A DNA stretch of 64,000 bases, from contig CAMBMO010000001.1 of NCBI GenBank assembly GCA_945868805.1, forward strand, positions 186,001-250,000, read 5' to 3'. The stretch comes from Singulisphaera sp. GP187. Its GTDB lineage: Bacteria; Planctomycetota; Phycisphaerae; Phycisphaerales; SM1A02. The position numbers and the translations under genes were made by a program. A model generated the notes under the pieces. The model was not told the DNA's origin and searched no databases. It saw only the letters and a list, made by a program, of their open reading frames with translations. This document shows, in pieces, positions 57,261 through 63,927 of this stretch (positions within the stretch are counted from its first letter, which is position 1; each line of letters opens with the position of its first letter).

Positions 57261-59909
<2,649 letters not shown>

Positions 59910-59949
59910 ACCCCAAAAACTTTCGCGGCGAAGCGCGGGATGAAGCGGC

Positions 59950-62900
59950 CTAGGGCGAACAGAAGAGCGTCGCCAACTTGACGCACGTTTCGTCCCATGC
60001 AACCGAGCAACATTCGGGCTGCACCTTTCCACAGATGATGTTGCAGCAACTTCCCTGTTCGCAGAATGGCGTCGTGTGGCTTTGGAAGCAGGATCCAGTT
60101 CCCTCAGCTCCGCACGTTGGACCATCGCATGGGCAGTCGGTCTGTGAAGTAGCGATCTTCGCGCACGTTCCGTCCCACTGCGACTCGCAGCAGAGTGGAT
60201 CCAGAAGGCAGACGGCGACGCAGCATTCCTTGTTGCGGCAGGATGGACCCGCGTGGGAGAGGCAGCAGTTTCCCGCGAGCGGATCGCCACACTGAAGTGG
60301 CGGACACGCAGCGTCAGGTCCCAAATTACAGGTGATCATCGCCTCGCCGGCACACGTTCCATCCCAGATCGTCTCGCAGCAGTAAGGGTCTGATGCACAC
60401 ACCGCAACACAGCAGGCCAAGTCCTTGCAACTGGCGGTCTCGTGAGGAAGGCAGCAATCACCAGCGCATGCGTCCCCACACTCCTTTCGACAGGAGCAGT
60501 CGGCAGATCCGAGAGCGAGTTCCACACAGTATGCATCCCAGAAGAAATCACGGCAGATGTTTTCGGTGTCCAACGCGCAGACCGCATCACAGCAATCCTG
60601 GTCCCGGCACTTCGGGGATTCGTAATGAACAACGCAACAATCCATCGCATTCTCATCGCCACACTCCAGCGTCGACTCGCATTGGGTCGCGGCTTGGGCT
60701 GCCGATCCACACGCATCGTCCCAGTTCGTATCGCAACAGAACGGGTCGGTGCGACAAATCTCAATGCAGCACACCATGTCTGCACAGCCTCGAGTCAGAT
60801 GTCCGATGAAGCAAGATCCCGACTCGACATTTCCGCATCCGCTCGCGCATCGTGCCAATGCCGTCTTGACGCAGAAAGAATCCCATCCGACCGTGCAGCA
60901 GTATGGATCCTCGGCGCAAACCGCGGTGCAGCAGTACGGGCTATCGCAATACGGGGCGTCGTGGGGAGAGACGCATGACTCGTTGCAACTATTTCCGCAA
61001 CCAGGAAGTCCACAGCAAAGACCTCGCGCGAGGGATGCGCACTCCTGGTCCCACTCCGCGGTGCAGCAAAGCGCATCCGAAAAGCAAACGGCGCTCGCGC
61101 AGGCGACATCCTCGCAACCGGGATTGTCATGAGCTTCGGTGCAGGATCCGATGCACGGCACATTCCAAACCGAAGCGGGTTTGCATCGTTGATGCGCGAG
61201 AACCACGCACGCGCTACTCCAGCTTTCGTTGCAACACTCCGGCATCACGAAACAGACAGCGTTGCAGCACGACGGATCGAGCGATCCCGGGCTCGCATGG
61301 ATTGAAAAGGAAGACTCGGTCCCTGGACAGCCACCCGGAGAGATGCAGACATACTCCGCAAACTCCGCGCACTCTTCATCCCAAATGATTCGACAACAGT
61401 TTGGGTCGATGCTGCAGACCGCCACGGAGCAATCGACATCCGAGCATCCACGTTGCGCATGCGCAACCAGACAGTCCCCGCGACCGCCCGCTGCAAACGT
61501 GGGCATCGTGCAGCCAATCCCGAGCTGCGCAAAGGTGATCGCCTGATCGGCACAGATCGCGTCCCATTGAACGACACAGCAGAATGGGTCGAATCCATCG
61601 CAGATCATTTGGCAACATTCCTCCTCTAGGCAGCCCTGCATGAAGCTCGCGACATAACAGCTGCGGGAGGCGGGACTCCCACACCCCTGCTCACGTTCGT
61701 TGCAGATCGCGGCAGCTTGGTCGACACAGTTCGAATCCCACTCGCTTTGGCAACAGAATGGATCCAACAAGCACACGGCATTGCAGCAGACCGCATCGTC
61801 ACAGTACGGCGACTTGTGCACAGTCGAGCAATCACCCGCGAAAAGATCGCCACACCCGCCACACTCATCTTCGACTGCGTCGACACACGCTTGATCCCAT
61901 GTCAGCTGGCAGCAACTTGGGATGAGTGCGCAGACAGCCGAGCAGCACGCAGGATCCGAGCATCCAGGATCCGCATGAACGACCAAACAGCTGTCCTGAA
62001 CATTCTCGCAGTAGGGATTCGTCGAGCACAAAACATCGGCGGCCGCCACGCAGGATGCATCCCATGTAATCCCGCAGCAAAATGGGTCGCTGTTGCAAAC
62101 CGAGTTGCAGCAAATTATCGACGAACAACCCGGGTCGAGATGGACCAAGGAACAAGCAGATTCGGCTCCACCACCACCGCAAGCGCATGAGATCGAAGTG
62201 CAAAACTGACTCGTCGCGGAGACGCACTGGACATCCCAGACGAATTCACAGCAATACGGGTCGAGTGTGCACACGACGACACAGCAGTTTGCATCACTAC
62301 AAAATGGCGTTCCATGCGAGAGGCAACACTCGCCCGCTGCGGGGCTTCCACAGGCGAGAATCGGACAGAATGCTCCCGCCTCCGTGACACACGCTTCATC
62401 CCATCGGATCGTGCAACATGCGGGGTCGACAATGCATACGGTCGTGCAGCACTCCACATCGCTGCAGTACGGAAAGCTGCTCGCCTGGAAACAGTTGTTT
62501 GCCAAGACGTCGGCACCGCAATCAAGGCATAGATCGACCGCCCCTGCGACACACAGTGCATCCCACTCGATCAGACAGCATGTCGGGATCGATGCGCACA
62601 CAACATCGCAGCACACCTGACTCGAGCAATAAGGTGAACTATGTTCGAAAAGGCATGACCCCGTCCCAAGGCCACCACACTTCCCGCACTCCAACGTCGC
62701 GAGCGCGACGCAACCAGCGTCCCACGCGATATCGCAGCAATTGGGTATCTGACTGCAGACATACTCGCAACACTCTCGGTCACCACAAAACGGGCCATGG
62801 GGGTCCATACAGCTTCCAACCAATGAAGACCCGCAAAACTGGCTCAGAACGCTTGGAGGGTTTGGCGCACCGGGGCTATCGATCCCAGTGACAACCTCCT

Positions 62901-63927
62901 GCTCGATCCCAGTCAAGTTTTTGTCGTCAGCATTGCGATAGACATGGCGAGCGGCTTCTTCGTTCCCAAAAGAAACGACGACTGGCGGGACTTCGAACAG
63001 CGCGCCATGCGCGTAAATGCACCCGCGTCCTCCCGGCACGGTCGTGAGCAACGATCGATCCACCGAAATCGCATCAAGCACGAGATCCCATGGCGGGAAG
63101 ACATTCGGAGGAGGCGTCGAACTGTTCGTGTACGAAGTGTCGAACTTGCAATCCTGATTCGCATCTATCGTCTGCCCGACCGTCGGGATCGCCGGTTTCG
63201 CGACATATCCGGGACCAGTTGGGCGTCGATAGATCAGGATCCATGTCGTATTGAAGTCATGCTGACCATTGAACGAAATCGACTGTCCGTTGGGAATATT
63301 CATTGGGACGCTGCCCGCGGGCACCGGAAGCGAAAAACTCGAGTCTTTGATGAGAGCGAGATTGGCCGCGGGTCCGAGCAATCCAAACGAGGCGCCTTGC
63401 AGATTGATCACCTGCTTGATCTTGCCGTTGGCAATGCTCGAGCCATTGTTCCTCGACACCAAGATCAGGTAATAGCCATTTCCAAACTGTTTCGAAAAGT
63501 TGTAATTCGCAGGGAAGGAACTCGGGCAACGAAATTCGACAAATCGCTGTTGCGGATCGCTCGCGAGTGGCTGACCGCTTCGGAACTCCGAGATGGTGAA
63601 TGCCGGGATGCGCCCCAGAAGTCCCATGCCACCCTGATTGGTGGGCTTGGAAAGATTGACCGCACGTTGGAGGAACGCCTTGTCTTGAGTATCCAACACA
63701 CCGTTTCGGTTCATGTCCGCGCAACCGGAGTAGCTCGACGAAGCGAACATTCCATTCCAGACTGTGACATCTGCGGCATTCACGACATTGTCTAGATTCA
63801 GATCCCCGATGAACGATGCGGGCGCGCAGAACTGCGCCTGTGCGGTCACACCAACACACAATGAAACTCCCACCGCCATCAGGCGCGCGAGCAATCCCGA
63901 ACAAGTTGAACGACGAACGACGATCAA
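59950..63927 (-). CDS. Secreted giant protein with dockerin-like pair and 17 cysteine-rich repeats
   Basis: 1325 aa. TTG 63927 is the first possible start: an in-frame TGA lies 12 nt upstream and AGGGA precedes it. The signal peptide ends at AQAQF. Residues about 40-92 form a dockerin-like EF-hand pair (DLNLDNVVNAADV, DMNRNGVLDTQD). Residues about 105-250 resemble a beta-sandwich, possibly lamin-tail-like (weak). From residue 371 to the end there are 17 repeats of about 56 aa, each with the frame C-x4-H-x3-4-C-x4-CC-x3-C-x5-CC-x3-WD-x2-C and often two further Cys. Eight to ten Cys per repeat implies a disulfide-stapled rod. I recognise no named family. Likely extracellular or cell-surface structural protein. 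Confidence 0.85.
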   Translation of the reverse strand: MIVVRRSTCSGLLARLMAVGVSLCVGVTAQAQFCAPASFIGDLNLDNVVNAADVTVWNGMFASSSYSGCADMNRNGVLDTQDKAFLQRAVNLSKPTNQGGMGLLGRIPAFTISEFRSGQPLASDPQQRFVEFRCPSSFPANYNFSKQFGNGYYLILVSRNNGSSIANGKIKQVINLQGASFGLLGPAANLALIKDSSFSLPVPAGSVPMNIPNGQSISFNGQHDFNTTWILIYRRPTGPGYVAKPAIPTVGQTIDANQDCKFDTSYTNSSTPPPNVFPPWDLVLDAISVDRSLLTTVPGGRGCIYAHGALFEVPPVVVSFGNEEAARHVYRNADDKNLTGIEQEVVTGIDSPGAPNPPSVLSQFCGSSLVGSCMDPHGPFCGDRECCEYVCSQIPNCCDIAWDAGCVALATLECGKCGGLGTGSCLFEHSSPYCSSQVCCDVVCASIPTCCLIEWDALCVAGAVDLCLDCGADVLANNCFQASSFPYCSDVECCTTVCIVDPACCTIRWDEACVTEAGAFCPILACGSPAAGECCLSHGTPFCSDANCCVVVCTLDPYCCEFVWDVQCVSATSQFCTSISCACGGGGAESACSLVHLDPGCSSIICCNSVCNSDPFCCGITWDASCVAAADVLCSTNPYCENVQDSCLVVHADPGCSDPACCSAVCALIPSCCQLTWDQACVDAVEDECGGCGDLFAGDCSTVHKSPYCDDAVCCNAVCLLDPFCCQSEWDSNCVDQAAAICNEREQGCGSPASRSCYVASFMQGCLEEECCQMICDGFDPFCCVVQWDAICADQAITFAQLGIGCTMPTFAAGGRGDCLVAHAQRGCSDVDCSVAVCSIDPNCCRIIWDEECAEFAEYVCISPGGCPGTESSFSIHASPGSLDPSCCNAVCFVMPECCNESWSSACVVLAHQRCKPASVWNVPCIGSCTEAHDNPGCEDVACASAVCFSDALCCTAEWDQECASLARGLCCGLPGCGNSCNESCVSPHDAPYCDSPYCCTAVCAEDPYCCTVGWDSFCVKTALARCASGCGNVESGSCFIGHLTRGCADMVCCIEICRTDPFCCDTNWDDACGSAAQAATQCESTLECGDENAMDCCVVHYESPKCRDQDCCDAVCALDTENICRDFFWDAYCVELALGSADCSCRKECGDACAGDCCLPHETASCKDLACCVAVCASDPYCCETIWDGTCAGEAMITCNLGPDAACPPLQCGDPLAGNCCLSHAGPSCRNKECCVAVCLLDPLCCESQWDGTCAKIATSQTDCPCDGPTCGAEGTGSCFQSHTTPFCEQGSCCNIICGKVQPECCSVAWDETCVKLATLFCSP
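59953..62817 (-). repeat. Seventeen diverged protein repeats, about 165 nt each
   Basis: Counted on the WDxxC landmark: sixteen WD and one WS. Repeats are diverged at DNA level, so expansion is old; the most conserved points are the two CC pairs, the V-C before D-P, and WD. Repeat 10 lacks the first Cys pattern (SFSIHASPGSLDPSCC) and repeat 14 has ICRD in place of the second CC. Confidence 0.9.

Follow-up and report, generated by a model that had tools for sequence, protein, structure and literature searches.

The window analysed here, a stretch of 64,000 nucleotides taken as a whole, carries a gene whose product ends in a long row of short cysteine-rich repeats. This raises the question what kind of domain the repeat is, and what a secreted protein built from 17 of them may be made for.

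Architecture of the Array Protein

The array protein gene (59950..63927, minus strand) was delimited from the ORF list and its translation. It starts with TTG, encodes 1325 amino acids and has its stop codon at 59950-59952 on the minus strand. Direct reading of the translation gives a signal peptide of about aa 1-32 (63832..63927, minus strand; LLARLMAVGVSLCVGVTAQA followed by QFC), as was already recognized in an earlier note on this DNA; its putative end, read by eye, lies between TAQA and QFC. It is followed by a dockerin-like tandem pair of calcium loops (about aa 39-92; 63652..63813, minus strand; GDLNLDNVVNAADV and ADMNRNGVLDTQDK), a middle domain of about 270 aa (62842..63645, minus strand) and the array of 17 cysteine-rich units (59953..62835, minus strand), which reach the C-terminal end of the protein. 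The array is defined by motif, alignment, profile matches, AF2 fold and in-register conservation. An enzyme domain was found neither in the translation nor by Pfam. The convergent neighbor is purA, encoding an adenylosuccinate synthetase (58581..59909, plus strand; Pfam PF00709, E 8e-166), with about 40 bases between the two genes (59909-59950).

The dockerin-like pair, described as such in the earlier note, was seen by Pfam Dockerin_1 (PF00404) with 20.7 bits and an E of 4.9e-4, yet this score is under the Pfam gathering cut-off of 22.9, and the own genome (96% complete) has no match to cohesin PF00963. Proteins with a GC-type dockerin anchor (NF041540) are comparable in that the 21 matches of the own genome include other unit-bearing proteins; they differ from the window protein, which has no NF041540 match and whose pair is N-terminal. 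As the own genome has NF041540 matches and none to PF00963, the partner of these dockerin-like tails does not look like a classical cohesin.

For the middle domain no Pfam family was found. A relative occurs in up to three copies in a secreted unit-bearing protein of the own genome (BLASTP E 5e-7, the second and third matches being weaker). The suspicion that the middle domain is a lamin tail gained no support from Pfam in the window and in five ortholog regions.

The Repeat Unit

The ORF contains 17 W-[DS]-x2-C units with a W-to-W spacing of 53-63 aa (mean 56.8), which agrees with the 17 tandem cysteine-rich repeats of about 56 residues described in the earlier note. Its judgement that the pattern is too regular for chance is borne out as well: the core motif [VI]C-x(4-6)-CC-x3-W[DS]-x2-C occurs 16 times, compared with 0.002 per composition-preserving shuffle. 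A profile search recovered all 17 units (best E 1.7e-18, with a profile made from these same units), and the ten-cysteine framework with its W-D is matched by the profile in each of them.

The unit can be written roughly as CG-x(4-8)-C-x3-H-x2-PxC-x-D-x2-CC-x2-VC-x2-DP-x-CC-x3-WD-x2-C-x3-A-x3-C. In the alignment the core cysteines are those of CG, GxC, PxC, CC, VC, CC, WDxxC and AxxxC. They number ten and not eight, as first thought, because the preceding CG and the AxxxC are both part of the unit. The spacing given before as C-x4-H is C-x3-H by alignment, and the array start moves from 62817 to 62835 once the first CG is counted. By alignment, WD is present in 16/17 units, His in about 15/17 and DP in 10/17. 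The array holds 175 cysteines in 961 residues and is acidic, with 127 acidic versus 27 basic residues; some units carry optional cysteines in addition to the core ten.

All units lie on the minus strand and their boundaries are approximate: unit 1 at about 62841-62683, unit 2 at 62682-62521, unit 3 at 62520-62356, unit 4 at 62355-62182, unit 5 at 62181-62017, unit 6 at 62016-61858, unit 7 at 61857-61684, unit 8 at 61683-61501, unit 9 at 61500-61339, unit 10 at 61338-61171, unit 11 at 61170-61003, unit 12 at 61002-60841, unit 13 at 60840-60658, unit 14 at 60657-60484, unit 15 at 60483-60295, unit 16 at 60294-60115 and unit 17 at 60114-59953.

Proposed Pairing of Cysteines

The joint loss of cysteines was followed in 464 non-redundant units from the window, the genome and the contig loci. 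The losses of C6 and C8 coincide in 4/5 cases (p=2.6e-9) and C1 and C5 were jointly lost 43 times (p=3.6e-20), while C2 and C3 disappeared together 11 times and C3 never alone (p=2.8e-16). Eight of ten units without C4 also lack C10 under a strict rule (p=1e-7); some of these eight stop early in the local alignment, and under a relaxed rule, in which a neighboring cysteine may count, p is only 0.02. C7 and C9 are invariant and are therefore taken to pair by elimination. From these losses we infer the map C1-C5, C2-C3, C4-C10, C6-C8 and C7-C9. As the units are related by descent, the p-values overstate their independence; the paired losses occur in several genera and at several array positions.

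Family Searches and Predicted Fold

The earlier note had recognized no known family in the repeat, and all searches are in line with this. The repeats of the whole protein have no match in Pfam, NCBIfam (0 families at E<=1) or PHROGs, and a PDB sequence search gave no relative. A strong match to a characterised Pfam domain, named in the note as an outcome that would speak against it, did not appear when the 17 units were scanned singly (EGF, TSP, LDL-A, Kunitz, knottin and others): three one-member chance matches with E 0.6-4 were obtained. No earlier description of the unit was found in the open-access literature.

Structure prediction, proposed in the note as a check, gave one consistent fold for a single unit and for a three-unit stretch. 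The AlphaFold model of one unit, based on an alignment of 85 diverse units, has a pLDDT of 92.5 and shows a compact three-helix fold with helices at 23-32, 35-38 and 43-56. In the three-unit model (35 rows; pLDDT 87.8, pTM only 0.61) each unit shows the same three helices. Foldseek found 0 matches to the PDB at E<=10 with the one- and three-unit models, and no convincing match among viral proteins. Since Foldseek is weak on very small cysteine-rich folds, the models leave a new fold possible, not proven.

In the single-unit model, strand or bridge is assigned to residue 15 (His) and residue 41 (Trp) alone, so that both seem to have a structural role. Among 240 units from many genomes His is present in 57% and Asp, outside WD, in 66-75%. 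Neither the His frequency nor the model supports the proposal that His and Trp-Asp bind a metal or a sugar.

Conservation of the 17-Unit Array Between Genera

The array gene was found again in 20 relatives, whose regions were fetched from strong matches in long ORFs and are not a random sample. Exactly 17 units are present in 15 of the 21 distinct genomes (window included), the others having 16, 18, 19 or 20; arrays with such counts align to the 17-unit ones via a few inserted or lost units. As a gauge of distance, the purA identity of the relatives to the window reaches down to 61%. purA and the array gene are no more than about 4 kb apart in 19/20 relatives; in the remaining one the contig ends near the array. 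In several genera both genes are convergent and about 30-110 bases apart; the neighborhood is kept in other genera with variable orientation and distance. purA is a conserved positional marker and stands outside the mechanism.

To determine the correspondence of units, seven genera were each represented by a single 17-unit array, which gives 21 pairings. Offset 0 was best in all of them, i.e., the units correspond one-to-one. The in-register identity at variable columns was 0.243, compared with 0.163 (sd 0.003) for shuffled unit order. Inter-unit spacing likewise correlates across genera (mean 0.48 versus a shuffled maximum of 0.15), and at junctions 9 to 12 spacings of 54, 56-58, 56 and 54 recur in many arrays. 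The excess identity peaks in the linker and N-terminal columns (53-57, 1-11 and 18) and is small on the helix faces. In two of the relatives the units come directly after the signal peptide without other N-terminal domains. The N-terminal part varies or is missing and the units stay, so that it is the row of 17 units as such that is conserved.

The contig locus L135, which is the same contig as L180 and stands besides the 20 regions, is deposited as ‘Singulisphaera sp. GP187 isolate MH-09jul19-142’; its purA is 87% identical to that of the window and it corresponds to a same-genus relative. The purA identity and the array gene place the contig in the genus of the window, so that the deposited name looks wrong.

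Distribution of the Unit

The taxonomic spread, likewise suggested for inspection in the earlier note, is concentrated in the window's own planctomycete family, with recurrence in myxobacteria and a few Bacteroidota. Of 101 genomes sampled from this family, 94 have the unit. In a sample of the order 63 of the 64 positive genomes belong to it, and a phylum sample of 372 genomes contained seven positives, again only from this family. Sixteen or more unit matches, enough for an array, are present in about half of the genomes sampled from the family; the rest have too few, so that the array is dispensable at the family level. Genomes with a single match, considered as carriers of an ancestral one-unit protein, turned out to encode long proteins that carry one or two units, which are often divergent.

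Outside Planctomycetota, the matches listed for a DNA pattern, with all counts to be read as at least the number given, derive from Myxococcota, Bacteroidota MAGs and others. Among those listed for Myxococcota are Sorangium, Corallococcus, Minicystis, Paraliomyxa (55 unit matches) and many MAGs, with MAG names as deposited. Variants of the unit at four myxobacterial loci have a differently spaced N-terminal half, and some of these lack the usual C2/C3 positions. In long proteins of array-less members of the planctomycete family a divergent unit (GGCSDLECCxxVC..WxxxCVxxA) occurs, with a possible counterpart in the own genome in an S8 subtilase (L017). The unit is also found in 13 ORFs on contigs of a viral collection, some of them 1000-3000 aa long.

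Among 132 proteins scanned, 13 combine the unit with a Peptidase_S8 (subtilase) domain. Further partner domains are FG-GAP, kelch, C-type lectin, trypsin, Kunitz, transglutaminase-elicitor and dockerin. The own genome encodes seven more unit-bearing ORFs, including an S8 subtilase, which has two units, one of them weak, and an FG-GAP protein.

Possible Function of the Array

Taken together, we regard the array as a row of 17 disulfide-stapled three-helix units, each distinct from the others, that forms a secreted extracellular scaffold or rod, and give this reading a probability of roughly one half. After Sec export each unit would fold around the five disulfides of the map and form a stable, acidic, protease-resistant bead. 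The conserved junctions would fix the geometry between neighboring beads, from which we propose a rod or superhelix whose length and shape are fixed. An exchangeable N-terminal part may tether the array to the cell surface or to partners; here it would consist of the dockerin-like pair and the middle domain, elsewhere of the signal peptide only. In other secreted proteins of the family, such as subtilases and FG-GAP proteins, the unit may serve as an accessory module, probably for protein-protein contacts or surface stabilisation. We infer the oxidation, rigidity, surface location and function of the array; the rigid extracellular rod suggested in the earlier note is a reasonable proposal and is strengthened by the fixed unit number and the conserved junctions. 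A narrower version, which we put forward tentatively and consider clearly less probable, is a family-specific scaffold or molecular ruler of 17 units, with an order fixed before many genera split, an own neighbor or partner for each position, a fold unmatched in the PDB and an oxidation independent of DsbA and VKOR. In the own genome no match to DSBA (PF01323), VKOR (PF07884) or Thioredoxin_4 (PF13462) was found, although paired cysteines abound in many of its secreted proteins; this result counts against the scaffold reading.

As the main rival we consider an array of ligand-binding units comparable to LDL-receptor class A or EGF domains, in which all or some of the units bind different proteins or glycans and position-specific conservation reflects binding specificity. 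The conserved order does not speak against it, as an array of distinct binding units should keep its order as well, and the position-by-position orthology, the acidity of the array and the joining of the unit elsewhere to lectin, FG-GAP, kelch and subtilase domains, as is often seen with recognition modules, all fit. However, the in-register excess lies mostly at junction and N-terminal columns, with little on the helix surfaces, and an invariant charged cluster is missing, given the His and Asp frequencies above. We consider binding as the principal role about half as probable as the scaffold.

Less likely than the ligand array are a cross-linked polymer and an inhibitor array. A structural polymer of the cell envelope, sheath or holdfast, with chains cross-linked by disulfides, would suit the optional cysteines and the general use of cysteine-rich extracellular repeat proteins in matrices. 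The cysteine-rich repeats of myxobacterial TraA, with three invariant cysteines per repeat, were proposed to form a rigid stalk (PMC3325183). But the co-loss pairs the core ten cysteines within the unit and leaves few free for cross-links, and the fixed unit number is more easily reconciled with a defined molecule than with a random polymer. A connection of the array to the proteinaceous wall of planctomycetes, long discussed (PMC2754498), is only a thought, and for the proteinaceous wall of Isosphaera cysteine was reported to be absent (PMC3072084), which also weighs against the polymer; we hold it to be improbable. Still further down we place a multi-headed protease inhibitor or protease-resistance shield, comparable to tandem Kunitz or Kazal-like domains and directed against the unit-bearing secreted subtilases. 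The Peptidase_S8 fusions, the two units of the own-genome subtilase and one protein that additionally has a Kunitz domain fit this explanation, but a protease fusion is equally well accounted for by a prodomain or accessory function. A hypervariable loop resembling a reactive site was not seen, and most unit-bearing proteins are non-proteases; we hold inhibition to be very improbable.

Comparison with Known Repeat Systems

Like the array, the TraA repeats (TIGR04201) are tandem and cysteine-rich in secreted surface proteins, and the myxobacterial phylum also has the present unit. Unlike in the array, a framework of CC, CC and WDxxC is not described for them in PMC3325183, and the window protein has no NCBIfam match at E<=1. 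The Myxococcus cysteine-rich acidic repeat (TIGR02232) and DUF4215 (PF13948) are cysteine-rich, secreted and of myxobacterial type, and two unit-bearing proteins match each model, but the window protein matches neither at E<=1. The CTDC repeat of Dictyostelium (PF00526) is a short cysteine-rich extracellular repeat as well and is matched by two unit-bearing bacterial proteins, but by neither the window protein nor any of its 17 units.

Fixed-order tandem arrays of small disulfide domains are best known from the extracellular matrix and receptors of animals, and few clear cases are, to our knowledge, known from bacteria. The arrays of EGF and LDL-receptor class A domains share with the present one the many small disulfide domains in fixed order. 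These domains have three disulfides and little or no helix, whereas the present unit has a predicted set of five disulfides and three helices and no Pfam match.

Implications

The present array has an unregistered domain, a disulfide map that can be read from evolution, and a unit count and order kept across genera. The unit has expanded across a whole planctomycete family, reaching dozens of copies in a genome, and its profile would give an annotation to many secreted proteins of Planctomycetota and Myxococcota that are now called ‘hypothetical’. The findings also raise the question how disulfides are made in a genome encoding many cysteine-rich secreted proteins, in which DsbA, VKOR and Thioredoxin_4 were not detected. 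The same 17 units in the same order in related genera speak for a defined structure outside the cell and not for a loose repeat, and offer a handle on the extracellular structures built by largely uncultured planctomycetes.
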